From Ignavibacteriales bacterium (GTDB lineage Bacteria > Bacteroidota > Ignavibacteria > Ignavibacteriales > SURF-24), in the NCBI GenBank assembly GCA_026390815.1, contig JAPLFH010000016.1, positions 1 to 64,000 of the forward strand: a DNA stretch of 64,000 bases, written 5' to 3'. The position numbers were made by a program, and so were the translations under genes. Positions 839 through 57,677 of this stretch are shown here, in pieces. Position 1 is the first letter of the stretch, and every line of letters starts with the position of its first letter. Below the pieces are notes generated by a model. The model saw only the letters and a program-made list of their open reading frames with translations, ran no database searches and was not told the origin of the DNA.

Positions 839-844
839 TCATAT

Positions 845-876
845 TTTGTAGGTCGAACTTAAGTTCGACCTACAAA
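845..876. terminator. Perfect 32-bp palindrome after a T9SS gene, probable terminator
   Basis: The half-site TTTGTAGGTCGAACTT (845-860) is followed directly by its exact reverse complement (861-876), then TTTT. It starts seven bases after the stop codon. A related hairpin with the same outer 13 bases and a six-base loop follows the T9SS gene ending at 3878, so this is a shared 3' element. Termination is inferred from position and the T run. Confidence 0.6.
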
Positions 877-1054
877 TTTTCTTAACTTTCAGGATCCATA
901 TTTAAATAACCGAAGGATATTATTGCTATTATTTCTGTGTGTAGTTTAGCTTTCAAGTTTGTTCTATTATATAATTATTTCTGAATAGCATTCTCGTTTA
1001 GGCAGCGGTTTAATTGTAATACCAAAATACTTATTTAAACAAAAAGGAGGTACA

Positions 1055-1174
1055 ATGAATACAAAACAATTCTATTAAATGCGGACAAAACCTTATTACA
1101 AATGTGAAAAATCTATAACCGTAGATAATTTAACAATTGCATTAGGCTTCATCCGCATTAAAATGAAGTCCTAG
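1055..1174 (+). pseudogene. Small reading frame with a strong ribosome site and an in-frame stop at codon 8
   Basis: AAAGGAGG sits seven bases before an ATG at 1055. The frame reads seven residues (MNTKQFY), meets TAA at 1076-1078, and resumes immediately with ATG at 1079 in the same frame for 31 more residues ending at TAG 1172-1174. This could be a decayed small gene, a leader peptide followed by reinitiation, or chance. A ten-pair stem with a one-base bulge (1143-1152 with 1163-1173) overlaps its end. I do not recognise the peptide. Confidence 0.3.
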
Positions 1175-1206
1175 ATTAAATCTAAAGAAATTTAGGAGTA
1201 AAAATA

Positions 1207-2295: not shown

Positions 2296-2297
2296 GC

Positions 2298-2331
2298 AAA
2301 GTTGGGCTGTTTATGTAACAGCCCAAACTTT
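2298..2331 (+). terminator. Rho-independent-type hairpin after the FN3/T9SS gene
   Basis: AAAGTTGGGCTGTT (2298-2311) pairs with AACAGCCCAAACTTT (2317-2331) with one bulged base and a five-base loop. It lies three bases after the stop codon and is followed by ATTTA. Confidence 0.65.
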
Positions 2332-2345
2332 ATTTAGGATTTATT

Positions 2346-3878
2346 ATGAAAATTCATATAAGCATAATTATACTTTATTCAATAGTTACCTGTTTTGCTC
2401 AACCAACGCAGAAAAAAATCTTATGGCCAACTTTAGCAGATTCACCATGGCCTATGATAAAGCATGATCCTCAATTTACAGGTCGTTCACCTTATAAAGG
2501 TCCTCAAACACCAACTATAATCTGGACCGCAGATATGAAGGACGGAATCTTCTCAGGTCCAGTAGTCGATACAGGAGGTAATCTTTATTTTGGTTCTTAT
2601 TATCAGCTAAATAGTGCAGATCATTTTTACTCATTTACATCTGATGGAGAATTAAGATGGGATTATAACACGGGTAGTAATCGTCCACCTCAAACAGGTA
2701 TTCTAATAGATTCCAGCAACACAATTTATTTCGGCTCACTCGATAAATACTTTTACGCATTAAATCCCGATGGTACATTTAAATGGAAATATGAAACATC
2801 GGCACCAATTGTAGAACTTGCTATACCGAATATAGATTTAGAAGGAAGATTGTATATAACAAATGGTTTAGGAGAATTATATTCTATTAATCCCGATGGA
2901 ACATTAAACTGGAAAGTAAAATATGAAAATGGATTCTTTGCGGATTCGCCTGTTTTTTCTCCCGAAGGTAATACTATTTATATTGCGGGAAGAGATTCTA
3001 ATATTTTTGCGATTAACTTAGATGGAAGTCTTAAATGGAAATTTAAGTGTGGAAAAATATTTAGGTCACCGATAATAGATTCTTATGGTAATATCTATTT
3101 TATACCTAAAGTCCTGCCTCAATATTTATATTCACTCTTTCCCAATAGCAATGTAAGATGGAAATATGGCGTTAGAAGTGTTGCAGAAGTTTTTTCAATA
3201 CCAACTATAGATTATGAAGGTAATATTTATTTTATTGCAATTGATTCAACAGTATTTCCCAATAGAGCTTTGATATCATTAAATTTTGATGGTTATTTTA
3301 GATGGAGTTATATTTTCGAAGAATACGAAGATTTTTGGCAACCATTAATTTGTGATTCTGAGGGAACAGTTTATTTGGGCTCAACTTATGGTAAATTCTA
3401 TTTCGCGATTTCAACTGATGGAAAATTAAAATGGAAACTTCCATTGAATGATTACCAAGTGGACAACACGGGTTCTATTGCGAAAGATGGAACACTTTAT
3501 TTAGGTGTTCATAAAAGTTCACTGGCTACCAATCAACAAAAAACTTTAATAGCTATAAGAGATACTGGTACAACAAGTGTTGGTACCTATCCTAAAGTTT
3601 TCAATTTTCAGTTGGAGCAAAACTATCCCAATCCATTCAACCCTACTACAACAATAAGCTATACTTTACCATCAGATGGAAGAGCTACAATTAAGATTTT
3701 TGATATACTTGGAAGAGAAGTAAAAACGTTGGTTAAAGATTATAAAACTGCAGGGAGCTATTCTGCTGTTTGGAATAGTCAGGATATTTATGAAAATGAA
3801 GTTTCTTCAGGAATTTATTTCTATAATATCAAGTTCAAGGATAATTCAGTAACAAAGAAAATGTTGCTCGTTCGTTAA
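2346..3878 (+). CDS. Secreted PQQ-type beta-propeller protein with T9SS sorting domain
   Basis: The 510-residue product has a signal peptide (MKIHISIIILYSIVTCFA), then SPWPMIKHDPQFTGRS, an opening motif seen in many PQQ-like outer-surface propellers. Residues about 60-400 contain repeated blades with the pattern YxxNPDGTxKWKY or NLDGSLKWKF, each preceded by a G-x-IYF strand. A T9SS type A domain follows from about residue 420 (NYPNPFNPTTTISYTLP to KKMLLVR). No catalytic residues of quinoprotein dehydrogenases are apparent, so a binding or structural propeller is more likely than an enzyme. The tail-encoding DNA is nearly the same as that at 580-857. Confidence 0.85.
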   Translation: MKIHISIIILYSIVTCFAQPTQKKILWPTLADSPWPMIKHDPQFTGRSPYKGPQTPTIIWTADMKDGIFSGPVVDTGGNLYFGSYYQLNSADHFYSFTSDGELRWDYNTGSNRPPQTGILIDSSNTIYFGSLDKYFYALNPDGTFKWKYETSAPIVELAIPNIDLEGRLYITNGLGELYSINPDGTLNWKVKYENGFFADSPVFSPEGNTIYIAGRDSNIFAINLDGSLKWKFKCGKIFRSPIIDSYGNIYFIPKVLPQYLYSLFPNSNVRWKYGVRSVAEVFSIPTIDYEGNIYFIAIDSTVFPNRALISLNFDGYFRWSYIFEEYEDFWQPLICDSEGTVYLGSTYGKFYFAISTDGKLKWKLPLNDYQVDNTGSIAKDGTLYLGVHKSSLATNQQKTLIAIRDTGTTSVGTYPKVFNFQLEQNYPNPFNPTTTISYTLPSDGRATIKIFDILGREVKTLVKDYKTAGSYSAVWNSQDIYENEVSSGIYFYNIKFKDNSVTKKMLLVR

Positions 3879-3884
3879 TCATAT

Positions 3885-3916
3885 TTTGTAGGTCGAATTG
3901 AACTTCGACCTACAAA
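3885..3916 (+). terminator. Hairpin after the PQQ/T9SS gene, sibling of the palindrome at 845-876
   Basis: TTTGTAGGTCGAA (3885-3897) pairs with TTCGACCTACAAA (3904-3916) across the loop TTGAAC, followed by TTTT. The outer arms match the 845-876 palindrome exactly; only the centre differs. Confidence 0.65.
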
Positions 3917-4084
3917 TTTTCCCAACTTTAACTGGATTACCCTGCGCAATTTTTATCTACAGCTTTATAACTCAAGATTTTATTCAGGGTAAAAAGATGA
4001 TACTTCAAAAGTGAGAAATTATTGTCGCTAACTTAGGGGAGTAAATAACTTACTAAATATATGTTAAAATTATTTTTAAAACGT

Positions 4085-4261
4085 TAGTACTTGTACCATG
4101 ATTTTGGAATAATTTTTTTACCCTCAAAAACTTTGATTACGCACTGTAAACGAACTATTTTAAGCGATTTTTAAAAAGTGTCTCATAATGGTGCCCGAGA
4201 ATGAGACACAATTTTGGGTACTTGTACCCAAAACGCCCTTACGATTTAGTACAAGTACCAT
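4085..4261. promoter_or_regulatory. Cluster of three GTAC(TT/AA)GTAC palindromes, possible operators
   Basis: GTACTTGTAC occurs at 4087-4096 and 4218-4227, and its reverse complement GTACAAGTAC at 4249-4258. The first and third share the frame TAGTAC..GTACCAT; the second is embedded in a longer palindrome, TTTTGGGTAC-TT-GTACCCAAAA (4212-4233). The last site ends about 70 bases before the ATG of the next gene. Such repeated dyads often bind a dimeric regulator, but no regulator gene is adjacent and the role is inferred. Confidence 0.4.
4178..4209. terminator. Nine-pair hairpin, possible terminator
   Basis: GTGTCTCAT (4178-4186) pairs with ATGAGACAC (4201-4209) across 14 bases, followed by AATTTT. 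It lies about 300 bases from the nearest upstream gene, so it could instead be part of a 5' leader or a regulatory dyad. Confidence 0.3.
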
Positions 4262-4328
4262 TTACTTTTTAATTTCCTAAAAGTATGTTACCCAAAGCAA
4301 TTAATAATATTAAAAAGGAGAAAATACT

Positions 4329-5057
4329 ATGGCAAGCAAAATATTTCTAAAATATAACTTGCCTTATACAAATATTCTAACAGCGGCAGATACTATTAAT
4401 ACCTACTATGCTGACGATGAAAAAGATTTCAAAAATTTTAACAATTCTTTGTTTACCGATTCTTTTAAGTCAGAATTCCTTGCAGAAGTAGCTGCTGCCA
4501 AAAGTTTGATGAATGATTTTTGCGCTGTAGAAGAGCAATTAAAAGAAATTGATGATATAAAGAAAATAATTGCATTGTGTACATCGGCTTACCAGGAATT
4601 AAAATTCTTTGTCGAAAGAACTTTCCCTGGAAATCTTACAGTTTGGAATCAATTTGGTTTTATAGATTATTCTATAGCAACTAGTTCATTAACAAGATTG
4701 ATTCAATTCATGGGGAGACTTTGTTACATAGCAGAAAAATTTAAGGATGTATTAGCAAATAATGGTTATAGCACTATCAAGTTAATAAGGCTAAACAATT
4801 TGAAAGATGAATTAATTAAAGAAGTAGCTGAGCAATCAGAAGCAAAAAAAAACGGAGCTTCTCAAACCTCTGATAGAATAAATTCTTTAAACAAAGTATG
4901 GGAGAAGATGGTGGATATTAATGAGGCGTCTTTAATTATCTTTAAAAATAATTATGCTAAACTTCAAAAGTATTTATTGCCATCAAACAATTTTGATTTT
5001 CAGAATAATTATGAAAATAAAGCTATACCAAGTGACGAAAAAGTTCAGAATATATAG
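4329..5057 (+). CDS. Unrecognised helical cytoplasmic protein, 242 residues
   Basis: The gene starts at an ATG nine bases after AAGGAG. The product has no signal peptide or membrane segment and is rich in Lys, Glu and Asn with predicted long helices (about residues 45-90 and 120-210). One aromatic patch, FVERTFPGNLTVWNQFGF, sits near the middle. I do not recognise the family. It stands alone between two gene-free stretches and is preceded by the palindrome cluster, which suggests its own regulation. Codon use looks like that of its neighbours. Confidence 0.7.
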   Translation: MASKIFLKYNLPYTNILTAADTINTYYADDEKDFKNFNNSLFTDSFKSEFLAEVAAAKSLMNDFCAVEEQLKEIDDIKKIIALCTSAYQELKFFVERTFPGNLTVWNQFGFIDYSIATSSLTRLIQFMGRLCYIAEKFKDVLANNGYSTIKLIRLNNLKDELIKEVAEQSEAKKNGASQTSDRINSLNKVWEKMVDINEASLIIFKNNYAKLQKYLLPSNNFDFQNNYENKAIPSDEKVQNI

Positions 5058-5122
5058 TTGAGTATATAAATGATTTTTGTTTTTAGAAAAATAAAGCTTA
5101 TCAAAAAGCAATTTTCCTTTCA

Positions 5123-5189
5123 GCCCCATTTACAGGATTGCATTTTAGCAACCTGGCAAGTTAATCATCAGCTTGCGGGGGAATGGGGC
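5123..5189. other. Long-range inverted repeat in the gap before the next small gene
   Basis: GCCCCATT (5123-5130) is the reverse complement of AATGGGGC (5182-5189), enclosing a smaller possible stem (GCAAG with CTTGC). This GC-richer patch stands out from the surrounding AT-rich DNA. It may be a folded RNA leader or a relic of a repeat; nothing identifies it. Confidence 0.25.
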
Positions 5190-5283
5190 ATGGGGATTTG
5201 TTCATATGCTTGAATTGAAATTTAGGCAGTTAGATTATGTAGGTTGTTTTAAATAATCAATAAATTATTTTGGAGTACAATTT

Positions 5284-5532
5284 ATGGGTTGGGAAAAAGT
5301 AAATGAAAAACTTAAAAATAAGTACAAATCTGATTTTGTTTCTTGTGATGAACTTAACGAAAGGAGTTATATTTTTCAAATTATACTTGAGGAATATCCA
5401 ATGCTTTCTAGGATGATGGTGGAAAATGCACTTGAACATTATTGTAGAATTACCAAACCACCGCGAGAAAGAGAACATTTTATAAAGTGTGTTGCACGAT
5501 ATTTAGGATTTGGAGAAATATCGCTTAACTAG
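5284..5532 (+). CDS. Small unrecognised protein, 82 residues
   Basis: An ATG follows TTTTGGAG by nine bases. The product is soluble, probably helical, with three cysteines and a segment PPREREHFIKCVARYLGFGE near its end. It does not match a family I know. The ribosome site and normal amino-acid composition favour a real gene over chance; the overlapping antisense frame lacks both. Confidence 0.55.
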   Translation: MGWEKVNEKLKNKYKSDFVSCDELNERSYIFQIILEEYPMLSRMMVENALEHYCRITKPPREREHFIKCVARYLGFGEISLN

Positions 5533-5847
5533 AAACAAACTTAATTTTTAAAACATTAAATATTTTTTGCAGGATTATCGAATAAGAAAAACACTCTTAA
5601 CAAACACAAAAATGCACATAATAAATAAAATGTTTGATGCTGGATACTTGATGCTGGATAATGGGGAAATCCAGTATCAAGAATCAAGCTCGCTTTTAAA
5701 ATAACATTTCAATATGAATATCCTAATCAAGGGACTTCTATCCAAATGATATTTTATTTTCATTTCTAAGGTTTTCTCACATTTTTTTTTTATAATAGTA
5801 CCCAAGGTTAGTTAATTTTCTATTTATACTCTTAATCAGGAGCAATT
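5533..5847. other. Gene-free stretch before folP containing a repeat hairpin
   Basis: No reading frame is supported. It holds two direct copies of TTGATGCTGGATA and an inverted partner (listed separately), a run of T at 5784-5792, and the ribosome site CAGGAG used by folP. Confidence 0.6.
5634..5685. repeat. Direct plus inverted repeat, interspersed-repeat type
   Basis: TTGATGCTGGATA occurs at 5634-5646 and 5648-5660. The second copy lies in a 17-base arm (5643-5659) that pairs, with one G-T and one mismatch, with 5669-5685 (ATCCAGTATCAAGAATC), giving a hairpin with a nine-base loop. It resembles small dispersed intergenic palindromes; copies elsewhere in the genome cannot be checked here. 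Confidence 0.45.
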
Positions 5848-7026
5848 TTGAATATCCAATTTGTAAATATTTCTTTTTTAGAAGTTTTTCAAAGATACAG
5901 TAAAAAGTATAATATTTTTAGAGAGAATTATGAATTAGGTTTACATGGGCTTGAATTACGAAATATTAGTTTGATTAATGCAGATGTTATACAAAAAATT
6001 ATTCTTGATAAAAAGGAAATCTGTTACAAAGCATTGGATAATGGAAAGGAAACCGCTGATTTATTAGTAATAGCATCAATTGGTAAATTAAAAGAATTAT
6101 CGCGCGAAATTGTTTCTGTTGGTAATGAAGAATTAGGCTACAGAATTAAAAAAGTTATACGCAATTTTGTTGAATTTGACCAGCAATCATTTACAATCGG
6201 AGATAAGGTTTTCTCTTTCTCAAATTCTTTTATAATGGGTATACTTAATGCTACACCGGATTCATTCTCAGACGGTGGTAAATATTTAGAACAAGAAAAA
6301 GCTGTCCCGTATGCTCTGGCAATGTTAAATGATGGTGCGGATATTATTGACGTTGGAGGAGAATCCACAAGACCAGGAGCGGAAAAAATATCTCTGGAAG
6401 AAGAACTTAAAAGAGTTTTACCAATAATAAATGAAATACTAAAAATAAAACCAAACGCAATTTTATCAATAGATACAACTAAAAAAGAAGTTGCGTTTGA
6501 AGCGTTAAGGCGCGGTGTAAAAATAGTAAATGACATCAGTGCCGGAACTTTTGAATCTGAATTACTTGAAGTGGTAAAAAGATTTAATGCTACATTAATT
6601 TTGATGCATATGAAAGGGAATCCCCAAAATATGCAGGTAAATCCAAGTTATGATGATGTTGTTTCCGAAGCTTATGACTTTCTAAATCATCGACTGATTG
6701 CTGCAAAAAAGCTGGGAATAAAAAATATAATTATAGATCCAGGAATAGGGTTTGGAAAAAGGGTGCAGGATAATTATGAGTTGATAAAAAGATTAGATGA
6801 ATTCAAAGGATTAGGATTACCAATTATGATTGGTGTATCAAGAAAATCATTCTTAGGAAAATCTCTTGGTCTGGAAGTGGAGAATAGAGATATTTCATCA
6901 GTTATTGCGGAATCTATTGCAATAAAAAATGGCGCTAATATAATCAGGACACACAATGTTAAATCGGCTGTTCAATCAAGAAAGATTTTAAATTTTATTC
7001 AAAACCCGGAAGAAATTAATGTTTGA
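5848..7026 (+). CDS. folP: Dihydropteroate synthase with N-terminal extension
   Basis: It condenses p-aminobenzoate with 6-hydroxymethyl-dihydropterin diphosphate to form dihydropteroate in folate synthesis. Signature segments are present: FIMGILNATPDSFSDGG near residues 128-144, DIIDVGGESTRPGA, NDISAG, IIDPGIGFGK and a terminal IRTHNVK. The start is TTG, with CAGGAG upstream. At 392 residues it is about 110 longer than typical FolP; the extra N-terminal part is helical with no motif I recognise. It overlaps cdaA by eight bases, so the two are co-transcribed, as in many Bacteroidota and Firmicutes relatives where cdaA follows a folate gene or glmM. Confidence 0.95.
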   Translation: MNIQFVNISFLEVFQRYSKKYNIFRENYELGLHGLELRNISLINADVIQKIILDKKEICYKALDNGKETADLLVIASIGKLKELSREIVSVGNEELGYRIKKVIRNFVEFDQQSFTIGDKVFSFSNSFIMGILNATPDSFSDGGKYLEQEKAVPYALAMLNDGADIIDVGGESTRPGAEKISLEEELKRVLPIINEILKIKPNAILSIDTTKKEVAFEALRRGVKIVNDISAGTFESELLEVVKRFNATLILMHMKGNPQNMQVNPSYDDVVSEAYDFLNHRLIAAKKLGIKNIIIDPGIGFGKRVQDNYELIKRLDEFKGLGLPIMIGVSRKSFLGKSLGLEVENRDISSVIAESIAIKNGANIIRTHNVKSAVQSRKILNFIQNPEEINV

Positions 7027-7837
7027 TCTGTTTAAAATAGGATTCCTTACCATAACTTTTTTGGATGTTGTAGATGTTTTAATTGTTGCATATATAATTT
7101 ATAATGTTTATGGATTTATTAAAGGTACAATAGCGGCACAAATATTTATCGGGTTGATAATTGTTGTATTACTATCATTTGTTGCGCAGGCAGCCAACCT
7201 TAAAGCATTGGGATGGTTATTAAAAATAATTACAGATATTTGGGTAATTGCATTTATTGTTTTGTTCCAACCAGAAATAAGAAGATTGCTTTTGCTTGTA
7301 GGCAGAAATCCATTCTTCAAATGGAATTTAAGAAGAGATGAAAAAAATATTGCAAATATTTTAACGGAATCAGCATTCGAATTATCTCAGCTTCAACACG
7401 GTGCTTTAATTGTACTTGTAAAAACAACTGGAGTAAAAAGTTTTATAGAATCTGGAATTATTCTTAAAGCCAAATTAAGCAAAAGTCTCTTAATGTCAAT
7501 TTTTTATCCACGTTCACCATTGCACGATGGTGCGGTTATTATTAAAAACGATAGCGTTGAAGCAGCAAGATGTACTTTGCCGCTCTCTTCAACAACAATT
7601 GTAGATGGTCATTCTTTAGGTATGAGGCACAGGGCTGGATTAGGAATTGCAGAACAAGCCGATGTTTTAAGCCTAATAGTTTCAGAGGAAACTGGCAGTA
7701 TTTCCATTGCAGAGGAAGGGAAATTAACAAAAGGACTTTCCAAAGAAAAATTAAGAGAACGACTCTCAGTTGTAATTGAACATCAGAAAGAAAGAGGATT
7801 GAAGGCAGTTTTTTCTGGTAATGAAAAAGAAAGTTGA
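7019..7837 (+). CDS. cdaA: Diadenylate cyclase, membrane-bound CdaA type
   Basis: It makes the second messenger cyclic di-AMP from two ATP. The N-terminus has about three membrane segments (roughly residues 15-85), followed by a DisA_N catalytic domain with the two diagnostic motifs: DGA at residues 170-172 and RHR at 203-205 (GMRHRAGLGI). Length (272) is normal for CdaA. It overlaps folP. A c-di-AMP phosphodiesterase or receptor is not visible in the window. Confidence 0.95.
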   Translation: MFDLFKIGFLTITFLDVVDVLIVAYIIYNVYGFIKGTIAAQIFIGLIIVVLLSFVAQAANLKALGWLLKIITDIWVIAFIVLFQPEIRRLLLLVGRNPFFKWNLRRDEKNIANILTESAFELSQLQHGALIVLVKTTGVKSFIESGIILKAKLSKSLLMSIFYPRSPLHDGAVIIKNDSVEAARCTLPLSSTTIVDGHSLGMRHRAGLGIAEQADVLSLIVSEETGSISIAEEGKLTKGLSKEKLRERLSVVIEHQKERGLKAVFSGNEKES

Positions 7838-7993
7838 AGTTTCTTCAATCATTAAATGGTTGAAATTAAAAATGAAATTAAATCTACAAGTAAATATTTA
7901 TTGTCTTATTGTTGGCAACGGAATGATTGTAATGAAGTTTCACTTATAACATTTTGCGCAGCTCAAACTTATTTTAATTAATTGTTAAGCTAA

Positions 7994-8443
7994 ATGGCAA
8001 ATAAAATAAAAGGGTTATCAAAAAATAAATCTTTTGTAGAATCTGCTTTTATCATACTAAAGTTCCGATTTAATGTAATTAGAAAAAAAACAAAAGAGTA
8101 TCTTAATGCTGATACAGTTGAAAATCTTCATAACTTAAGAATTGCCATAAGAAGATTGCGCTATTCAATGGAGAATTTTGAGATTTGTTATAGAAAAAAA
8201 GATTTCACCAAAATGATAGAGTTTATGCGTTACCTCCAAGATTTAATTGGAGAGGGAAGAGACCTTGATGTGCTTGAAGAAAAAATAAAACATTTATCAG
8301 AAGAAAATGAAATTGAAGTTCCGGAAGCACTTTACCAAAGTATTGAAAAAAGAAAAGTAGATTCAACTCATAACATAAAATTGATGTTAATGAAATTTCT
8401 AAAAGACAAAGAAATAAAAGGATTTTTTACAAACAAAATTTAG
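7994..8443 (+). CDS. Short CHAD domain protein
   Basis: CHAD domains are helical, histidine- and arginine-rich, and bind polyphosphate. The line LHNLRIAIRRLRYSMENF and the segment DLIGEGRDLDVLEEKI are typical. At 149 residues it covers about half of a standard CHAD domain, so it is either a minimal form or a truncated gene; the frame itself is intact. A possible functional link is the broken ppx/gppA (polyphosphate/ppGpp phosphatase) 7 kb away, but they are not in one operon. Confidence 0.8.
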   Translation: MANKIKGLSKNKSFVESAFIILKFRFNVIRKKTKEYLNADTVENLHNLRIAIRRLRYSMENFEICYRKKDFTKMIEFMRYLQDLIGEGRDLDVLEEKIKHLSEENEIEVPEALYQSIEKRKVDSTHNIKLMLMKFLKDKEIKGFFTNKI

Positions 8444-8451
8444 GACGGCTG

Positions 8452-9129
8452 ATGAAACTAAAATATTTTTCTCATTCAGCATTTCAACTTACATCTGGCA
8501 GCGGTAAGATAATTTTGATTGATCCATTCTTAGACGATAATCCAACTTCCCCCGTAAAATCGATAGATGTAAATGCTGATTATATAATTTTAACTCACGG
8601 ACATAGCGATCACATAGGTGATGCCTGGAAGATTGCAAAAAGAACCGGTGCATTGTTTATTTGTGTAAACGAATTAGCAAACTATTGTATATCTAAAGGA
8701 TTCAAGGCGCATAATATGCACATCGGTGGCAGCCATAAATTTGATTTCGGCAAAGTTAAATTTACAATTGCGCATCATGGTTCTTCAACTTCAGATAATT
8801 ACTATTGCGGTGAACCTTCCGGAGCAATAATTTCTGCAGATGGAATTACAATTTATCATACAGGTGATACAGGATTATTTTATGACATGAAATTAATTGG
8901 AGAAATGAATCCTATTGATTATATGCTTTTACCAATCGGTGATAATTTTACGATGGGTTTAACTGATGCGGCTAAAGCTGTTGAGTTAGCAAATCCAAAG
9001 GTTGCAATACCAATGCATTATAATACTTTTTCAGTAATAGATTCCGACCCCTACCAGTTTAAGAAATTAGTTGAATCGAGAAATATGAATTGCCGGGTTA
9101 TGGGTTACGGTGAAGAAATAGAATTATAA
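8452..9129 (+). CDS. UPF0173 family metal-dependent hydrolase
   Basis: This is a metallo-beta-lactamase fold protein. The metal-binding motif THGHSDHIGD is at about residues 47-56, with a further His in AHHGSS, an Asp in HTGDTGLFYD and a late His in IPMHYNTF. The 225-residue length and order of motifs match the YtkL/UPF0173 family, whose substrate is not known. It begins eight bases after the CHAD gene and is probably co-transcribed with it. Confidence 0.85.
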   Translation: MKLKYFSHSAFQLTSGSGKIILIDPFLDDNPTSPVKSIDVNADYIILTHGHSDHIGDAWKIAKRTGALFICVNELANYCISKGFKAHNMHIGGSHKFDFGKVKFTIAHHGSSTSDNYYCGEPSGAIISADGITIYHTGDTGLFYDMKLIGEMNPIDYMLLPIGDNFTMGLTDAAKAVELANPKVAIPMHYNTFSVIDSDPYQFKKLVESRNMNCRVMGYGEEIEL

Positions 9130-9306: not shown

Positions 9307-10086
9307 TTGGCTAAAATAATTGCGATAGCGAACCAAAAAGGCGGTGTTGGTAAAACAACTACTGCAATCAATTTATCGGCATCAATTGCCGCAGCGGAAA
9401 ATAAAACTCTGCTTATTGATATCGATCCACAATCCAACTCCTCTTCCGGATTAGGCTATGATGGAAAGGAAAAATCGATTTATGAAGTTCTCGTAGGTAC
9501 AGATGACATTCAAAACTGCATATTAAGCACATATATGCCATATCTTGATCTTCTTCCATCGACTATTAATCTTGTTGGAGCAGAAGTTGAATTGGTTGGT
9601 ATAGAAAATCGTGAGTACCTGATTAAAAATTCCCTGCAAACAATTCAAGACAATTATGATTTTATCTTTGTTGATTGTCCACCTTCGCTAAGCATTTTAA
9701 CATTAAACTCATTAACTGCATCTAATTCGGTTTTAATTCCAGTTCAATGCGAGTATTTTGCTTTGGAAGGATTAGGACAACTTCTTAATACAATTAACAT
9801 AGTTAAAAAGCATTTCAATCCAGATTTGGTTATTGAAGGAGTTTTATTAACAATGTTCGATACAAGGTTAAGATTATCCCACCAGGTTGCTGATGAAGTA
9901 AAAAAATACTTTGGCGAAAAAGTATTTGATACGATTATCCATCGAAATGTTAGAATATCGGAAGCGCCAAGCCACAGCAAACCAGTTATACTTTATGATG
10001 CTGTTTCAACCGGTGCGCAAAATTATATCAGCCTGGCAACAGAACTAATGAAAAGAAATCATTTATATAAAGATTCTAATGTCTGA
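9307..10086 (+). CDS. parA: Chromosome partitioning ATPase ParA/Soj
   Basis: It is a Walker-type ATPase that works with ParB-parS in chromosome segregation. The deviant Walker A motif KGGVGKTT is at residues 10-17, with the signature DCPPSL and the region [10 protein letters not shown]. The start is TTG (9307), directly giving [13 protein letters not shown]. Length 259 is typical of chromosomal Soj. It overlaps parB by eight bases. A TTG start with only a weak AAGAAG site suggests modest translation. Confidence 0.95.
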
Positions 10087-11038
10087 TCACATAAGTAAAA
10101 TAAAACCAGGACTTGGAAGGGGATTGGATGCCCTCATTTCGCCAAATTTAAAAACAACTAATCAAAATCTTACAATTCCTGCAAAGGATATTAAGCAGGA
10201 TGATGGACAGGATTATGAGATTTTGGTAAAAATTCCTGTGCATGCGGTTTCTCCAAATCCATTTCAACCAAGGACTAATTTCAATCCAGCCGCTTTGGAT
10301 GAACTAAAGAAATCTATTTTATCAAATGGATTAATCCAACCAATTACCGTCCGACGTTCCGCTTATCAGAAGTATGAGTTGATTTCTGGCGAGCGAAGAC
10401 TTAGAGCCTGCAAAGATATTGGTTATAGGGAAATTCCAGCGTATATCATCAAGGTAGACACCAAAGAAGCGATGTTAGCGCTTTCTCTGATTGAAAACAT
10501 CCAGAGAGAAAAATTAAATGCAATTGAGATTGCCAACGCTTATAAACGATTAATTGAGGAATGTAATCTTTCCCAGGAGCAAATTGCAGAGCAAGTGGGT
10601 AAGGATAGAACAACTATAACTAATACCATCAGACTTTTAAAACTTCCCAAGGAATTACAGGATAGTATAATTAAAGAAGAATTGAGTGCTGGACATGCAC
10701 GAGCATTAATAAATTTGCCAAGCGAACGGATTCAAATAGAGTTGATGCACAAAATAATAGATGAAAATCTTTCAGTTAGAAAAGTTGAGAATATTGTTAA
10801 GAAATATTTGACTGGAGGCTTTGGCAAAAGAAAAGCTACAGTTGATATTTCAAAACAGAATATGCAAAATCTTTCGCAAGCTGACCTGGAAGATAAATTG
10901 AGAAAGATTTTGGGAACCAAAGTAACGTGTAAATTAAAACCAAATGGTGCGGGTGAACTAATAATTGAATTTTACTCCAACGACGAGCTCGATCGTCTTT
11001 ATGAAATGTTTGAGATAATTGGAAAGACGTATAATTAA
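10079..11038 (+). CDS. parB: Chromosome partitioning protein ParB/Spo0J
   Basis: It binds parS and is a CTPase clamp. The start [10 protein letters not shown] is the ParA-contact peptide; the ParB/Srx domain carries [15 protein letters not shown] and SGERRLRAC; the helix-turn-helix region carries [20 protein letters not shown] and [10 protein letters not shown]; the C-terminal part is a dimerisation domain. Length 319 is normal. No consensus parS (TGTTTCACGTGAAACA) was seen by eye in the window. Confidence 0.95.
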
Positions 11039-15235: not shown

Positions 15236-16155
15236 TTAGCCACACTTTTGCATGTATTCAATTATTGAACCATACCTAATTCCTTTTGCGCTTACAATAA
15301 TCTTTTTAGTTTTTAACAATTTCATTAATTCAGCTAAGATAATTGTTCCAGCCAAAATAACATCTTCCCGTCCTGCTAAAAACTCCGGGTGATCGCTTAG
15401 CAGCATCTTGCTGGAACAACTTGAAAAATAATTAATAAACTTGTTCAAATCATTATCGGTAAGGATGGAATTTTCAATCATAGTTTCATCATATTTAGGC
15501 AAATTAAGTTTAATACCCGAAAGGGAAGTTGGAGTACCTGCAACTGCAATTGTATTTATACCAATTGGAAATGTATTTTCAATTTCTTTGAATGTATTAT
15601 AAGACTCAATTTTCATTCTTTCAACTTCATGTGGTTTAGGAGTGTCATTTTTAATAATCATTTCGGTTAACCTTACAACTCCAGTGGAAAAACTTTTACT
15701 AAACTTTATTCCATCTTTATTGCCATAAATTAATTCTGTACTTCCTCCGCCAATATCAATTACAATGTTTGAATCTGAACTACTCTCATAAGTAGCACCA
15801 AGGTAAGATAGTTTTGCCTCCTCATTTCCTGAAATTATTTTTACATTAAAATTCCATCGTTTTGCAATTTCGTTAATTATCCAGGTACTATTCGATGCTA
15901 ATCTTAATGCGTTTGTACCAACCAAAATAGTTTCTTTACAATCATATTGCTTTATAATTTTGAATATTCTTCAAGTACCTGAAATAGCGATTGAATTCTT
16001 TCTGATTGAATTTCACATCCAGGTTGTAAACCTTTTCCTATGCGCGGCATTCTATATTCATTTAAAATGGTTTTAAGGAATTTATTGCTTAAATTTACCT
16101 CAGCGATTAAAAGCAAAACTGTATTAGTCCCTATATCTATCGAAGCAATATTCAT
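15236..16155 (-). pseudogene. Ppx/GppA family phosphatase broken by a frameshift
   Basis: Two adjacent frames make one protein. The first (16155 to 15952) gives NIASIDIGTNTVLLLIAEV and ends EEYSKL-stop. The second encodes VGTNALRLASN, IDIGGGSTELIYG, FSTGVVRLTEM and AGTPTSLSGI. Adding one A to the AAAA run at 15958-15961 (minus strand) joins them as EEYSKIIKQYDCKETILVGT, exactly where family members continue. The total would be about 305 residues, the usual short Ppx/GppA length. Family members hydrolyse polyphosphate or pppGpp. Either the gene is recently inactivated, it is frameshifted in translation, or the base call is wrong. Confidence 0.85.
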
Positions 16156-25237: not shown

Positions 25238-26155
25238 ATGGATTCAAAAAGAAAAATTTTATTTATCGTTAATCCTATTGCTGGAAGAGGGAGAACTCAA
25301 AAGATTCTACCTAAATTGAAGACGTACTTAGACAATTCCTCAGCCTATTCAGAAATTTTTATTACTGATAAGAAAGGAAGGGCTCACGAATATGTTTCAA
25401 ATACTACAGATAATTTCAATATCATTGTATCTGTTGGTGGTGATGGCACTTTAAATGAGATTATAAATGGACTTAATGGTAATAGTCATATTAAATTAGG
25501 TATCCTTCCATATGGCTCTGGAAATGATTTTGCTAAAGCTCTGGGAATTAAGAATAATTTTGAAAATAATATTCATACTATCATAAATAGTACGAATGTT
25601 TTTACTGTAGATGTTGGAAAGATTGAATACAAGGAGTTTCATAATGATCAAATTATTGCAAGTCATTTTATAAATAGTTGTGGGATTGGTTTCGATGCCC
25701 TAGTTTCGCAATTAATATTAAAGAATCATTTCCTAAAAGGATTACCACTTTATTTGTCAGCAGTACTTAAAGCATTATTTTGTTTTAAACCTTTTGAAAT
25801 TGATGCGGCATTTGATGATAAGAGAATTACTGGGAAAAAACTTCTCGTTGCTATTGGTAATGGGAAGACATCTGGAGGGGGTTTTAAACTAAATCCTTAC
25901 GCTAAATTAAATGACGAAAAATTGGATGCATGTATTATTGATTCTTTATCCAAGTTAAAAATTTTGCAAAAATTATCAAAAGCCATTACTGGTAAACATA
26001 ATTTGTTAAAAGAAGTTAAACTATTGCAATTTCAAAAATGTACGATACATTTATCTGATCCAAGTTATCTTCATTGCGATGGGGAAGTGATAAGTTCGTC
26101 AGTCTCAAAGGTGCAAATAGAATTAAGAAAAGATAAATTAAGGTTCATTATTTAA
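25238..26155 (+). CDS. Diacylglycerol kinase-family lipid kinase
   Basis: The DAGK catalytic domain shows FIVNPIAGRGR near residue 10 and the nucleotide loop SVGGDGTLNEIING, followed by PYGSGNDFAKALG. Length 305 fits the YegS/DgkB/BmrU group, soluble kinases that phosphorylate diacylglycerol or related lipids. It is the last + strand gene before the orientation switch and ends eight bases before the dif-like site. Confidence 0.9.
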   Translation: MDSKRKILFIVNPIAGRGRTQKILPKLKTYLDNSSAYSEIFITDKKGRAHEYVSNTTDNFNIIVSVGGDGTLNEIINGLNGNSHIKLGILPYGSGNDFAKALGIKNNFENNIHTIINSTNVFTVDVGKIEYKEFHNDQIIASHFINSCGIGFDALVSQLILKNHFLKGLPLYLSAVLKALFCFKPFEIDAAFDDKRITGKKLLVAIGNGKTSGGGFKLNPYAKLNDEKLDACIIDSLSKLKILQKLSKAITGKHNLLKEVKLLQFQKCTIHLSDPSYLHCDGEVISSSVSKVQIELRKDKLRFII

Positions 26156-26163
26156 TAATTATA

Positions 26164-26191
26164 AATTTACATAATATACATTATCGGACAA
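26164..26191 (-). other. Putative dif site (XerCD recombination site) at the gene-orientation switch
   Basis: Read on the minus strand, the XerD-side arm is TTATGTAAATT (26174-26164), one base different from the B. subtilis dif arm. The centre is TGTATA (26180-26175), as in E. coli dif. The XerC-side arm is TTGTCCGATAA (26191-26181), which keeps ATAA and is otherwise variable, as this arm usually is. Over 28 bases I count 21 matches to B. subtilis dif and 20 to E. coli dif. It fills the gap between two convergent genes, exactly where gene direction changes from + to - for the rest of the window, the expected position of a terminus. Confidence 0.7.
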
Positions 26192-27040
26192 CTACTTGTA
26201 AAGATAAAAACCTTCACCATTCTTTTTCCCTAACTTATTGGCTGCAACCATTTTTCGTAATAATGGACATGGTCTATATTTGGAATCCTTAAATCCATCA
26301 TATAATACTTCCATAATATTTAAACAAACATCCAATCCAATGAAATCTGCAAGTCTAAGTGGTCCCATTGGATGATTCATTCCTAATTTCATAACACTAT
26401 CAATATCTTCTTTATTTGCCACTCCTTCCATTAATGCAAAAATGGCTTCATTGATCATGATCATTAACAAACGATTAGAAACAAATCCTGGAAAATCATT
26501 TACAAGAATTGGAGTTTTGTCTAATTTTATCACTAAATCACTTATTGAAGCAAATGTATCATCTGAAGTTGAATAACCTCGAATGATTTCCACTAACTGC
26601 ATTAAAGGAACTGGGTTCATAAAATGCATTCCGATAGTTTTTTCTGGTCGAAATAATGAAAGCTCAGTTATTGATATTGATGAAGTATTTGTTGCAAAAA
26701 TACAATTTGAAGCGATTATTTCATTTAAAGTTTGGAATAAAGCCAACTTCACGTCCTTTTTTTCAATTATAGCTTCAATAATTAAATCCATTTCCTTAGG
26801 CAGTTGATCAATTGAAAATATTAATTCAATATTTTTTAATATCTCAATTTTATCTTCCACAATAAGGATTCCCTTGGAAATAAGTTTATCAATATTGTTC
26901 GATAAGGTTGATTGAACTTTGTCTAATTTTGATAAGTCACTATCAAATAAATACGTTTTAATTTTTTTGTGAGCAACTGTTTGCACAATCCCAATACCCA
27001 TTGTACCGGCGCCTATTACAGCAATTTTATTAATTTTCAT
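26192..27040 (-). CDS. 3-hydroxyacyl-CoA dehydrogenase (3-hydroxybutyryl-CoA type)
   Basis: It uses NAD(P) to interconvert 3-hydroxybutyryl-CoA and acetoacetyl-CoA. The Rossmann motif IAVIGAGTMGIGI is at the N-terminus. ATNTSSISITEL, GMHFMNPVPLMQLVEIIRG (with the catalytic His), PGFVSNRLLM and HPMGPLRLADFIGLD match the 282-residue stand-alone enzyme. It follows the thiolase gene by one base gap in the transcript, giving a two-gene pathway unit. Its stop codon touches the dif-like site. Confidence 0.9.
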   Translation of the reverse strand: MKINKIAVIGAGTMGIGIVQTVAHKKIKTYLFDSDLSKLDKVQSTLSNNIDKLISKGILIVEDKIEILKNIELIFSIDQLPKEMDLIIEAIIEKKDVKLALFQTLNEIIASNCIFATNTSSISITELSLFRPEKTIGMHFMNPVPLMQLVEIIRGYSTSDDTFASISDLVIKLDKTPILVNDFPGFVSNRLLMIMINEAIFALMEGVANKEDIDSVMKLGMNHPMGPLRLADFIGLDVCLNIMEVLYDGFKDSKYRPCPLLRKMVAANKLGKKNGEGFYLYK

Positions 27041-33064: not shown

Positions 33065-33991
33065 TTATGATTTGGGATGAGCTTGTTTATAAATTTGCTT
33101 CAACCGCTCTATACTTACATGCGTATAGATTTGTGTAGTTGATAGATTTTCGTGACCTAATATTTCTTTGACTGCTAAAAGATCGGCACCTCTATCAAGC
33201 ATATGTGTTGCTGCAGAGTGCCTTAAAACGTGTGGACTCCTTTTTTTAATATCAGATACTTTTGATAAGTATTTATTTACAATTCTATGAACGTATCTGG
33301 GATAAATTCGTAAATTGTTTGTTGTTATTAATAATGGTGATTTATGCACCAATTGTTCCCGTGTGATTAAATATTTTTTTAGTATTGAAATTGATTCTTT
33401 TCCGATTGGAACTATACGCATCTTTGATCCTTTACCGAATACTCTAATAGAATTGTTTGTAAAATCAACATCGCCATAATTTAAATTGCACACTTCAGAA
33501 ACACGTAAAGCGCAACCATAAAGTAATTCCAACACTGCAACAATCAACTTAAAATTATCTGTATCCGATGAGTTCTGCTCCTCTTTTTTTTGAAAAGTAA
33601 TTCTTTTTTGCTTTTCAATTTCTTCAGGAATCTTTTGATATTCTTCATAAGAAATTACTTCAGGAAGATTCCTTTTAATTTTAGGACCTACAATTGAACT
33701 TAATGGATTTGAAGAAACATAATCATTCTTTATTAAAAAATCAAAAAGACTTCTTAGTGACGATAATTTTCTTGAAATGGATGAAGTTGTTAACTTAGAT
33801 TCACTTAGTACCATAACATACTTTCGAATAAGTTTTTCACTAACATCTTCAATTTCAAATTTTTCATGTTCATTAGAAAATGAAACAAATTGAAAGAGAT
33901 CATTCCTATATGCCCGATGCGTTTGAATGGAATATCTCCTAACTTTCTGAATATCATCAAGGAAAAATTCTACACCTGTTTTAATTATCAT
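33065..33991 (-). CDS. Tyrosine recombinase of the XerC/XerD family
   Basis: The 308-residue product has an N-terminal SAM-like core-binding domain (residues about 5-100) and the catalytic domain with R163 (GCALRVSEV), K187 (FGKGSK), H254-x-x-R257 (HVLRHSA), H280 (LGHENL) and Y289 (IYTHVS). These are the complete active-site set. It probably resolves chromosome dimers at dif; whether it acts as XerC, XerD or alone cannot be told. It lies 7 kb from the dif-like site, in one run with topA upstream. Confidence 0.92.
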   Translation of the reverse strand: MIIKTGVEFFLDDIQKVRRYSIQTHRAYRNDLFQFVSFSNEHEKFEIEDVSEKLIRKYVMVLSESKLTTSSISRKLSSLRSLFDFLIKNDYVSSNPLSSIVGPKIKRNLPEVISYEEYQKIPEEIEKQKRITFQKKEEQNSSDTDNFKLIVAVLELLYGCALRVSEVCNLNYGDVDFTNNSIRVFGKGSKMRIVPIGKESISILKKYLITREQLVHKSPLLITTNNLRIYPRYVHRIVNKYLSKVSDIKKRSPHVLRHSAATHMLDRGADLLAVKEILGHENLSTTQIYTHVSIERLKQIYKQAHPKS

Positions 33992-36305
33992 TTGTTACTT
34001 GATCTTTTTCTTCAACAATTACTTCTTCGCCGCAAGTTGGACATTTTAGATATTCACCTTTTTTAGAGCTATATCTTTTTTCCATATAAGTTGAATCGCC
34101 ATTTGGACAATCGCCATTTACTGGCTTGTGCCAGGTTACAAAATCGCATTCGGGATATCGAGTACACCCATAAAAAACTTTCCTTCGTTTGGAAACTCTT
34201 TCTGTAACATCTCCAATTTTACATTTAGGGCATTTTACATCGATAGTAATTGCTTTAATGAAATCACAATCAGGATATTTTTCGCAACCAATAAATCGAC
34301 CAAATTTTCCAACCCGATAAACTGTATTCGAACCGCATTTCTCGCATTTGTCTCCTGTTAATTCCACTTCGTCTTTTTTATCTCCCATCATTTCTTTAAG
34401 AGATTTTATGTTTTTACATTCAGGATAATTACTGCAAGCTAAAAACCTACCGAACCTTCCAACTTTCATAATCATTTCACTATTGCACTTTTCGCAATAA
34501 ATTTTTTCCACAGTCAATTCAACTTTTTCAAGATCTTTCAAGAAAGGAACATAGAAGTCATTCAGTACTGTTGTGTAATCAATTTCACCTTGTGCAATTG
34601 AATCTAATTCTCCCTCCATCTTAGCAGTAAAATTAACATTTAATATATCTGGAAAACTCTTTACCAGGATTTCATTTACTCTTTTTCCTAAATCAGTAGG
34701 CTTAAGTCGGCGTTCTTCGGTTACAACATAATTTCTATCCTGGATAGTTGTAACTATAAGCGCATAGGTACTGGGTCTTCCTATTCCTTCACTTTCCAAT
34801 TCTTTTATTAATGAACTTTCACTATAACGTGCCGGCGGTTTTGTAAAATGTTGAGTTTTATGTAAATCGTTCAACTCCACTTTCTGATTCTGTTCTAATC
34901 CTGAAGGAATTAAATCATTTTCTCCTTCATCCTTGCCATTACTTTCTTCATTTTGTTCATCATAAATTTGCATAAAGCCATCAAACTTAATTGCAGTACC
35001 GGAAGCTTTAAACAAAAATTTGTCGGCTCTAACTTCAACTGTTGTAGTTTCAACAATGGCAGAATTCATTTGAGATGCAACAAACCTTTTCCAGATTAGT
35101 TCGTACAATCTAAACTGCTTTGGTTCTAAAAATGGTTTAACAAATTCCGGTGTATATTTTAAAGAAGTGGGACGAATTGCTTCGTGAGCATCCTGAACAT
35201 TCGTATCATTCTTTTTTTCAAAACTTTTAACAGTTTCGGGTAGATATTTTTCACCATAAGTAGCAACAATATATTCACGTAAATCAGTTAATATTTCCGA
35301 ACTAATCCTGGTGGAATCAGTTCGCATATAAGAAATAAGACCAACAAGACCTTCATTGCCTAAATCTATTCCTTCATAAAGATTTTGCGCAAGCTGCATA
35401 GTTTGTCTTGGTCTGTAACGTAAACTTTTAGAAGCTTCTGATTGAAGTGAACTGGTAATAAAAGGTGGAGGTGCGTTTCTTCTTCCCTCTTTTTTAATTA
35501 TGTCAGAAATTACAAATTCTTTTTTACTTTCAACTTCTTCCAAAAGTTCCTGGGCAGTTGTTTCATTATTAATTGCAAAATTTACTTTAAGGAATTCCTG
35601 CCAATCTTCATCAGACATCACAGGCTTAGGTTGTAATCTAATATTTTTACCATCAATCTCTGCTAACTTGGCTTTAAATGTTTCATTCTTATCAGTGCGG
35701 AAAATAGCCCAGATTGCCCAATATTCAGTTTGAATAAAATTAGCTATTTCTTCCTCTCGTTCACAAATTAATCTAAGAGAAACAGATTGAACTCTACCAG
35801 CCGATAAGGCATTATCCGAAGAACTAACGATATATTTCCAAAGCAAAGGACTAATTTTATAACCAATAATTCTGTCCATCACTCTTCTTGCTCTTTGCGA
35901 TGTTACCAGGCGAGTATCAATTTCAAGTGGAGCTTTAATTGCTTTAAGTACGGCATTCTTAGTAATTTCATTAAACAAAACCCGGAATATTTTTGCTTTA
36001 GTTGTTCCATTAATTACATCAGCAATATCCTGGGCTATTGCTTCACCCTCGCGGTCAGGATCGGTAGCTATAAATATATTTTTACTTTTAGATGCTAACG
36101 ATTTAATTTTTTTAATTATATCGCCCTTGCCCCTAATGTTTACTAATTGCGGTTTAAAATTATCTTCAACATCAACACCTAATTTAGTTTTAGGCAGATT
36201 TCTGATATGTCCAATTGTTGCTTCAACATGGTAATCTTTACCAAGGTACTTGTTTATTGTTTTAGCTTTGGAAGGTGATTCAACCAAAACAAGATTTTTG
36301 CTCAT
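33981..36305 (-). CDS. topA: DNA topoisomerase I
   Basis: It relaxes negative supercoils. The start chosen (ATG 36305) gives MSKNLVLVESPSKAKTINKY, the family's usual opening, preceded by AAAGGAAA; a frame-open extension upstream is not homologous. Toprim residues are E9 and D82-x-D84 (TDPDREGEA); the active Tyr is in GLISYMRTDSTR. Four C-terminal zinc-finger-like modules follow (CEKCNSEM, CEKCGSN, CPKCKIGD, and an eroded last one beginning CPNGD). The length is 774. It overlaps the recombinase gene by 11 bases. Confidence 0.95.
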   Translation of the reverse strand: MSKNLVLVESPSKAKTINKYLGKDYHVEATIGHIRNLPKTKLGVDVEDNFKPQLVNIRGKGDIIKKIKSLASKSKNIFIATDPDREGEAIAQDIADVINGTTKAKIFRVLFNEITKNAVLKAIKAPLEIDTRLVTSQRARRVMDRIIGYKISPLLWKYIVSSSDNALSAGRVQSVSLRLICEREEEIANFIQTEYWAIWAIFRTDKNETFKAKLAEIDGKNIRLQPKPVMSDEDWQEFLKVNFAINNETTAQELLEEVESKKEFVISDIIKKEGRRNAPPPFITSSLQSEASKSLRYRPRQTMQLAQNLYEGIDLGNEGLVGLISYMRTDSTRISSEILTDLREYIVATYGEKYLPETVKSFEKKNDTNVQDAHEAIRPTSLKYTPEFVKPFLEPKQFRLYELIWKRFVASQMNSAIVETTTVEVRADKFLFKASGTAIKFDGFMQIYDEQNEESNGKDEGENDLIPSGLEQNQKVELNDLHKTQHFTKPPARYSESSLIKELESEGIGRPSTYALIVTTIQDRNYVVTEERRLKPTDLGKRVNEILVKSFPDILNVNFTAKMEGELDSIAQGEIDYTTVLNDFYVPFLKDLEKVELTVEKIYCEKCNSEMIMKVGRFGRFLACSNYPECKNIKSLKEMMGDKKDEVELTGDKCEKCGSNTVYRVGKFGRFIGCEKYPDCDFIKAITIDVKCPKCKIGDVTERVSKRRKVFYGCTRYPECDFVTWHKPVNGDCPNGDSTYMEKRYSSKKGEYLKCPTCGEEVIVEEKDQVTNDN

Positions 36306-36318
36306 ATTTAAATTTCCT

Positions 36319-36768
36319 TTAGTTAATAGTATCTGAAGAGTAGAGTAGAAATCTGCTGCCTGGGGGCACATCTTCACTGAAATCAACCAAAGAAAAAAGT
36401 ATTATCCAGTTAATTTCTTCCTTTGTGATAGTTTCACCCGGATACAGAAAAAGTTGGTCTAGAATTGAATCTAGATCGGATGCATTTATCAATCCAACAT
36501 TAATTAAATGAGAAATATAATTATGATTTTCAGCTCCCAGAAAATTTATTTCTTCATTTGACAAAAAGCGATAATTATTTCTCTTTAATTTAAACTTCCC
36601 ATTAAATTTATTTAATTTTTTATCATACAACCAGCTAAAAGCAGCACTAATTGTTTGCTTGTTAAGACTTTTCTCTTTTGAAAGCTTTTTATTTACTTCT
36701 TCAAGTGAAAAGTTTTTGTCTAATCCATCAAGTATTTTTGCAAGCACTTCAACAAATTCTGCTGTCAT
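36319..36768 (-). CDS. DUF494/Smg family protein
   Basis: The 149-residue helical product has the Smg-like core ISAAFSWLYDKK and an end resembling the family's LEWVILFAL (EEINWIILFSLV). Function is unknown; in other bacteria smg lies near topA and dprA, as here with topA 14 bases downstream. It overlaps ybeY by 20 bases. Confidence 0.75.
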   Translation of the reverse strand: MTAEFVEVLAKILDGLDKNFSLEEVNKKLSKEKSLNKQTISAAFSWLYDKKLNKFNGKFKLKRNNYRFLSNEEINFLGAENHNYISHLINVGLINASDLDSILDQLFLYPGETITKEEINWIILFSLVDFSEDVPPGSRFLLYSSDTIN

Positions 36769-47550: not shown

Positions 47551-48256
47551 ACTTTTGAAGTATTCCATTAATCTCATCTCTTGTTAATTCTCTATAAGCG
47601 CCAACAGGTAGTTTTTCAACTCCAATTCCAGCGTAGTTAATTCTTGAAAGTGCTGTTACCATGTAACCTAATGCTTCAAACATGTTTTTTACAAAATGAT
47701 TTCTACCTTCCACCGTTTTAACAGTAATCAATTTTTTAGTTTTAAAGTTATTGATTTTTATATCTTCAAATTTACCCTTCTTACCATCCAAATAAATTCC
47801 TTTTAACATTTTTAGTTTATCTTCTTCAACCAAGGGTTTATCAATAGTTGCAAGATAAATACGAGGTACTTTATTATTTGGGTGTAAAAGTAAATTTGTA
47901 AAATCGCCATCATTTGTTAAAAACAGAACACCAGTTGTGTTAAAATCCAATCTGCCAACGGGAAATATTTTCAGATCCGTTTTTATTAACTGTATAACAG
48001 TTCTTCTATTTTTTTCATCTGAAGTTGTGGTTACAAAAGCTTTTGGCTTATGAAGCAAGTAATAAACTTTTCTTGGTCGTTTAATATTTTCTCCGTCAAG
48101 TGTAACATGATCTTTATCAGGATCCACTTTAACAACAAAGTCAGTAATAACTTCGTCATTAACAGCTACTCTTCCGTGTAAAATTAATTCTTCAACTTTA
48201 CGTCTGGAATCAACTCCACATTCTGAAAGATACTTATTTAATCGAATTGTCTTCAT
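47537..48256 (-). CDS. rluB: 23S rRNA pseudouridine synthase, RluB/RsuA family
   Basis: An S4 RNA-binding domain (IRLNKYLSECGVDSRRKVEE) precedes the catalytic domain with FPVGRLDFNTTGVLFLTNDG, which holds the essential Asp, and EGRNHFVKNMFEALGYMV. Length 239 fits RluB. It overlaps scpB by 23 bases, the standard scpA-scpB-rluB order. Confidence 0.92.
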   Translation of the reverse strand: MKTIRLNKYLSECGVDSRRKVEELILHGRVAVNDEVITDFVVKVDPDKDHVTLDGENIKRPRKVYYLLHKPKAFVTTTSDEKNRRTVIQLIKTDLKIFPVGRLDFNTTGVLFLTNDGDFTNLLLHPNNKVPRIYLATIDKPLVEEDKLKMLKGIYLDGKKGKFEDIKINNFKTKKLITVKTVEGRNHFVKNMFEALGYMVTALSRINYAGIGVEKLPVGAYRELTRDEINGILQKYENN

Positions 48257-48887
48257 CAGTACTTATTTCTCCTTCCTTTTCTAAGTTTTCTTCTAGTGCA
48301 TTCATCATTATTTTTTGTTTCTGCTCAATAAAATCTTCATCTTTCATTATTTCTTCAATCTCACGCGGTTTTGGAAGATCAGATATTTGATACAATCCAA
48401 AGTATTTTAAAAATTCAATGGTAGTAATGTAAAGCAATGGTCTTCCAACAGTTTCAGATCTACCTGTAATTGTAATTAGATTTTTTTCCAATAACGTGTT
48501 AATAATGTAATCCGAGTTTACTCCACGGATCGATTCAATTTCTGGTTTTGTAATCGGTTGTTTATACGCAATTATAGCCAGTGTTTCTAAAGCTGCCTGG
48601 CTTAATCTTCTTTTACTTTTTTCGGTTGAAAGATAACCGACATATTTTCCAAATTCCGGCTTTGTAGCAAAGATATAACCATTTGCTACTTTAACAATAT
48701 TAAATGAAAAGTCGTCTGATAAATATTTGGTATTCAATTCTTCAACACATGTATCAATTTCATCAACTGATAAATTTATATCTTCACCATCTATTTCCTT
48801 AATCGCATTAAAAATAAGCTGTACCGGTATCGGCTCATCAGATGCAAAGATTAATGCTTCTATAACTGTGGAGTAAACTTTATCCAT
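48234..48887 (-). CDS. scpB: Segregation and condensation protein B
   Basis: This winged-helix kleisin partner of SMC carries VIEALIFASDEPIPVQLI and the family phrase LSQAALETLAIIAYKQPITKP, then IRGVNSDYIINTLLEKNLI. Length 217, with an acidic C-terminal tail. It overlaps scpA by eight bases. Confidence 0.95.
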   Translation of the reverse strand: MDKVYSTVIEALIFASDEPIPVQLIFNAIKEIDGEDINLSVDEIDTCVEELNTKYLSDDFSFNIVKVANGYIFATKPEFGKYVGYLSTEKSKRRLSQAALETLAIIAYKQPITKPEIESIRGVNSDYIINTLLEKNLITITGRSETVGRPLLYITTIEFLKYFGLYQISDLPKPREIEEIMKDEDFIEQKQKIMMNALEENLEKEGEISTDEDNSIK

Positions 48888-52569: not shown

Positions 52570-52947
52570 CTACTTTTTTTGGTGAACTATTGCAAAGCAA
52601 GTAACATAATTCTGCGAATGACTCATTGTAATTTTAAGTTCCTTATTATCACTTAAAATTTTCTTCAATGAATTAAACAAAACAACAGATGGCATCCCAT
52701 TTGGCTCATTATAAATCTCAATATCTTTCCAGTGAAATCCTTTATCGCCATTAAAAGATAATGCTTTTGCAACAGCTTCTTTTGCAGCAAATCGAGCAGC
52801 AAGGTGCTGGTATTTATTTGGTTTTAAAAGTGAATAGTCAAGTTCAGTTTGAGTGAAAACTTTATTTAGAAATCTGTCGCCAAATTTATCTATGCTTTCC
52901 TTAATCCGATCAATCTCAATTATGTCAATGCCTATCCCAAAAATCAT
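52570..52947 (-). CDS. acpS: Holo-[acyl-carrier-protein] synthase
   Basis: It transfers 4'-phosphopantetheine to ACP. GIGIDIIEIDRIKE and AARFAAKEAVAKAL hold the Mg ligands; the C-terminal strand reads MSHSQNYVTCFAIV. Length 125 is standard. The start overlaps the ggt stop by one base (TAATG). Confidence 0.95.
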   Translation of the reverse strand: MIFGIGIDIIEIDRIKESIDKFGDRFLNKVFTQTELDYSLLKPNKYQHLAARFAAKEAVAKALSFNGDKGFHWKDIEIYNEPNGMPSVVLFNSLKKILSDNKELKITMSHSQNYVTCFAIVHQKK

Positions 52948-57659: not shown

Positions 57660-57677
57660 AAATATAAATTGGGTTAA

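Follow-up and report, generated by a model that had tools for sequence, protein, structure and literature searches.

In E. coli and B. subtilis, dif is a 28-bp site found in a single copy per chromosome at the switch of the skew. According to the scheme established in these bacteria, daughter chromosomes that homologous recombination has fused into a dimer would be pumped by FtsK until both dif copies meet at the septum, and the FtsK gamma domain would activate XerD for strand exchange at the XerD arm, after which XerC would resolve the junction at the XerC arm. At the locus analyzed here, the loading of FtsK, the sequence in which the strands are exchanged and the resolution of dimers in the cell may be expected to follow the same course, by analogy with E. 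coli and B. subtilis. Within the Bacteroidetes, the survey of Kono et al. 2011 (PMC3025954) predicted dif in 19 of 19 genomes, and placed xerC for the most part close to dif, with xerD located near the origin. In addition, Xer-dependent prophages residing at dif have been described in this phylum, i.e. the BMV microviruses (PMC3091885) and the PhiCjT23-like prophages (PMC9719478). In view of these reports, the claim accompanying the original prediction of a dif site in this DNA, namely that a terminus is seldom mapped in the group, could not be maintained.

The 28-bp site and its position at the replication terminus

The window, i.e. the whole stretch of 64,000 nucleotides that was analyzed, contains at 26164-26191 a sequence that reads AATTTACATAATATACATTATCGGACAA on the + strand, where the XerD arm comes first. 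The site, its parts (the last three delimited on an alignment of 55 sites) and the two adjoining genes are as follows:

25238..26155, + strand: lipid kinase gene (YegS/DAGK family), the final one of the left arm, ending 8 bp before dif
26192..27040, - strand: 3-hydroxybutyryl-CoA dehydrogenase gene, its stop codon abutting dif
26164..26191, - strand: dif site, 28 bp, with the XerC arm TTGTCCGATAA, the centre TGTATA and the XerD arm TTATGTAAATT as read on the - strand
26164..26174, no strand: predicted XerD-binding arm, AATTTACATAA
26175..26180, no strand: six-base centre TATACA (opposite strand, TGTATA)
26181..26191, no strand: predicted XerC-binding arm, TTATCGGACAA

The anatomy is that of dif, with two partly palindromic 11-bp arms flanking a 6-bp centre and an XerD arm that is better kept than the XerC arm. 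The XerD arm, the TGTATA centre and the inner XerC arm that had been recognized previously were all confirmed in the letters of the - strand; the XerD arm is one base off that of B. subtilis dif, and TGTATA is also the centre of E. coli dif. The arms are predicted, from their sequence, to bind XerD and XerC, respectively. When further dif matches were sought at up to 3 mismatches, none was found in the window (0 were expected according to 100 dinucleotide shuffles) and none in the 4.52-Mb genome, for which the reversed-pattern control was also 0. Because the last base of the lipid kinase gene is 26155 and the dehydrogenase stop codon starts at 26192, dif lies in a gap of 36 bases (26156-26191) and touches the right-hand gene. 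Hence, the convergent gap of the original prediction was real, but it is not 37 bases long, nor does the site fill it, since the 28-mer is placed against the stop codon at 26192.

GC skew calculated in 2-kb steps along the window was positive in all steps before 26 kb and negative in all later ones, and the cumulative GC skew of the 124-kb contig reached its maximum at 26143, 21 bp from dif. In nine relatives, in which 20 kb on each side of dif were analyzed, the cumulative maximum was separated from the site by 1, 5, 7, 25, 30, 67, 100, 435 and 735 bp. The skew change to be expected at a terminus was, therefore, present at this position both in the window and in the relatives. The switch from + to - gene orientation was also verified, the only real - strand gene to the left of dif being that at 15236-15925 (Ppx/GppA) and all larger ORFs to the right being on the - strand, nested ORFs excepted.

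The parS motif is present in two neighbouring copies, usually separated by 40-130 bp, in the vicinity of dnaA or of the inferred origin, and was not found in the window. The angle between dif and the parS pair was 166-178 degrees in six single-contig relatives, and that between dif and dnaA was 168-177 degrees in the single-contig relatives with the exception of one genome (G026). Chromosome-wide skew, sampled in two single-contig relatives, was noisy, and the positions of dnaA and parS were clearer. In the genome of the window itself, contig 24 carries both dnaA and a parS-like palindrome, dif being located on contig 16; because this assembly consists of 59 contigs, the antipodal position of dif refers to the relatives only.

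In the exceptional genome (G026:C1), dnaA and the parS pair were 556 kb apart, and the dif-dnaA and dif-parS angles were 131 and 178 degrees, respectively. Since it is parS, and not dnaA, that is antipodal to dif, dnaA is a poor origin marker in G026. Hi-C work on gut bacteria has reported that the origin is not marked by dnaA in all cases, whereas parS clusters do mark it (PMC10197239).

Taken together, the single copy, the skew switch, the conservation presented below and the position opposite parS in six single-contig relatives bore out the original prediction of a dif at the replication terminus, and the 28-bp site is almost certainly the chromosomal dif that marks the terminus of this genome, for which it provides a precise coordinate.

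Conservation of dif and the Xer recombinases

The 28-mer at up to 3 mismatches gave a single match in each of 25 of the 59 genomes of the order (own genome included), and the core AGTTTACATAATATAYATTAT at up to 2 mismatches gave a single match in each of 33 of the 34 remaining ones, i.e. exactly one dif in 58 of the 59 genomes. Reversed-pattern controls matched in 0/59 genomes in the 28-mer search and in 4/34 in the core search. The site is thus single-copy in its own genome and kept in 57 of 58 relatives of the same order, so that neither of the two corresponding outcomes named as refuting the prediction, a second site or a lack of conservation in relatives, was observed.

Among the 59 genomes, only G018 gave no match when the core was sought at 2 mismatches; its site has either diverged or been missed by the assembly.

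Alignment of 55 sites revealed the profile of a dif, in which the XerD arm, the centre and the inner part of the XerC arm are near-invariant and the outer XerC arm is variable, and no conservation was visible in the flanks of these sites. Among the 21 leading positions, 14 were invariant and the other seven showed 1.55-1.87 bits, a conservation that is partly selected because the 21-mer served in the search; the single count per genome is not so selected. At position 2 of the XerD arm the window has the only A in the column, G being present in 52 of the 55 sites. The inner TTAT of the XerC arm was invariant, and within its variable outer part the third base (position 24), which is outside the 21-mer search, was G in 52/55 sites. 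When the analysis was extended to a class-wide sample, 63 of 129 genomes matched the core at up to 2 mismatches, often as CTTTACATAATATATATTAT, although some of those at 2 mismatches will be due to chance. Within the order, a simple 21-mer finds dif in nearly every genome, draft assemblies included.

To the right of dif in the window are xerC and the gene next to it:

33065..33991, - strand: xerC, 308 aa; best NCBIfam model XerC TIGR02224, 289 bits, under the 335-bit cut-off
33981..36386, - strand: topA, DNA topoisomerase I, adjoining xerC

A Xer recombinase with a full active site had been announced 7 kb from the site, and the xerC product (6.9 kb away) indeed retains R-K-H-R-H-Y in a translation read by eye. 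The same residues, likewise read by eye, are kept in an XerD that scored above the NCBIfam cut-off and is encoded on contig 41, and the genome contains one FtsK-gamma domain (99.5 bits, contig 54). A second Xer of the same type is present in most relatives. In all 51 genomes that have both on one contig, xerC was located on the XerC-arm side of dif and pointing to it, at a distance of 3.7-14.3 kb, or 48.7 kb in one genome. Because a location of xerC near dif was already reported by Kono et al. 2011, this arrangement is an example of a known tendency, although a tighter one. On the other hand, dif within 10 kb of xerC was not found in 18 other Bacteroidota-type loci, and the close linkage is therefore not phylum-wide. 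A search for skewed 7-mers gave no KOPS-like motif standing out; G-rich 7-mers were skewed, but they could not be separated from codon and strand bias.

In G047 (C9:69673-118399), a block of ~44 kb with nearly all genes directed to dif separates dif from xerC. No second dif-like site was found in this spacer, which is for that reason not a Xer-type insertion.

A Xer gene found consistently 3.7-14 kb off (48.7 kb in one genome) might also be expected if the site were served by a single recombinase, as in the XerH/difH or XerS/difSL systems. Nevertheless, the XerS and XerH genes usually adjoin their site, and the xerC gene of the window is 6.9 kb away from dif. The full XerD above the curated cut-off on another contig and the second Xer of most relatives do not fit this explanation either, and Kono et al. 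(PMC3025954) give as the general rule for two recombinases that xerC is close to dif and xerD is located near the origin. A site for a single recombinase is, accordingly, very improbable, and the data are better accounted for by a chromosomal dif acted upon by XerC and XerD.

An element within dif of a relative

In the relative G034, 8,929 bp to the right of dif are missing from its sister species G057. This element (G034:C1:2942817-2951773; 118-9074 of the analyzed locus) lies between the XerD and XerC arms of the host dif. Its left boundary is a complete dif with an XerC arm ending GTGTTAT. The right boundary is formed by an equally oriented dif-like site, whose XerD arm, CTTGAAAATAA, is degenerate and whose XerC arm, with the ending GTGCTTA, is that found in the intact dif of G057. 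The outer flanks were 91/110 (83%) and 176/200 (88%) identical to G057, whereas the sequence just inside the boundaries agreed with it in 119/243 aligned columns, i.e. no match. A weak match to an endolysin was obtained, and the remaining proteins had no assignment; no integrase was matched among the proteins scanned and no capsid was recognized in the element. A putative structural protein of 360 aa had no match in PHROGs, phage records or viral contigs, and the predicted structure of the putative capsid protein showed a mean pLDDT of 35. The element is probably a small Xer-dependent prophage of unassigned family, since, as with the Xer-dependent phages of Bacteroidetes (PMC3091885, PMC9719478), it is bounded by dif-like sites and the host XerC arm has been moved to its far end. 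Judged from its boundaries, the insertion pattern is that left by Xer-exploiting phages, and it would represent a natural integration within dif.

The presence in the order of elements that exploit Xer, such as that of G034, raised the question of whether the site of the window could be a plasmid-type or mobile-element dif (a pdif or att remnant) rather than the site of chromosomal dimer resolution. However, the site is present once per genome, is located at the skew switch and opposite parS, and the same core genes are on both sides throughout the order; moreover, the window has no second site, and no better conserved second site at a skew switch elsewhere was found in the relatives. A mobile origin is thus scarcely credible. 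It is hardly more conceivable that the site is a bidirectional transcription terminator resembling dif merely as an AT-rich palindrome, an idea that draws on the 36-bp gap between convergent genes and on the inverted repeat ATAATRTAYATTAT but is largely refuted by a single site per genome and a sequence kept across more than 40 genera, by letters kept across 55 genomes beyond mere pairing, including the G at position 24 of the outer XerC arm (52/55) that was outside the 21-mer search, by a repeat without a G+C-rich stem, and by the integration of the G034 element exactly at the site. Chromosomal dif remains, therefore, the preferred identity of the site.

Gene neighbourhood of dif and comparison with known systems

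The surroundings of dif include three further genes related to chromosome segregation and structure:

9307..10086, + strand: parA (AAA_31/CbiA ATPase)
10079..11038, + strand: parB (ParB_N, HTH_ParB, ParB_C), 15.1 kb left of dif
48234..48887, - strand: scpB, condensin subunit, 22 kb from dif

Within ~20 kb on both sides of dif, most genes are represented in nine relatives by orthologues whose order and orientation are unchanged. The dif block is also syntenic in G104, which belongs to another family of the class; around 248485 of G104:C1, ~10 kb to the left and 26 kb to the right of dif keep the gene order, and a set of genes that in the window are 26-37 kb right of dif (52570-63606) sit on the left with their orientation flipped. 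Symmetric inversion is a rearrangement typical of the terminus, and the exchange of arms in G104 is consistent with such an inversion around dif.

Several relatives have a gene of ~2 kb between dif and the dehydrogenase gene, which was considered and turned out to encode an ordinary CLC channel.

The parAB genes are on the opposite side of dif from xerC. In all 37 genomes with parB and dif on one contig, the side of dif on which parB lies and its orientation were the same, and the distance was no more than 22 kb in 34 of them. In three genomes of another family of the same class (f13), parB was 27-30 kb from dif, with side and orientation unchanged. The linkage is, nevertheless, not class-wide, because parB and dif are 1.7 Mb apart in G087, a single-contig genome of yet another family. 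The distance from parB to parS was 1.5-2.1 Mb in six single-contig relatives. These data indicated that the genes around dif, parA and parB among them, make up an unusually conserved cluster. That the terminus, in the order and in at least one further family of the class, is such a conserved cluster, made up of dif, xerC, topA, scpB and parAB, with the parS pair at the opposite pole near the origin, is possible but rather doubtful. If the arrangement is selected and not inherited by chance, genes for the segregation of the origin would be held at the locus that is replicated last, and the supply of ParAB could then be tied to the end of replication. Whether the pattern of parAB, dif and xerC recurs can be checked in closed Bacteroidota genomes. 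No description of parAB beside dif with a distant parS was found in the open literature, in a search that lacked the main parS survey (Livny 2007).

When the site is compared with those already described, the 28-bp layout, the single copy and the skew switch are shared with E. coli and B. subtilis dif, and XerC, XerD and FtsK-gamma are encoded here as in those systems. The outer XerC arm, CGGACAA, has other letters than in E. coli or B. subtilis, which is normal variation between groups. The dif sites predicted in Bacteroidetes by Kono et al. 2011 are from the same phylum and lie near GC-skew shift-points (PMC3025954); those predictions rest on the small genome set of 2011, and the likeness drawn here is one of position and gene placement. 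The dif of the window belongs, therefore, to an already known type of site, and its surroundings are more interesting than the site itself. As parAB is usually described as origin-proximal, the neighbourhood of parAB, dif and xerC, with parS at the other pole of the chromosome, departs from the picture in which parAB adjoins the origin.
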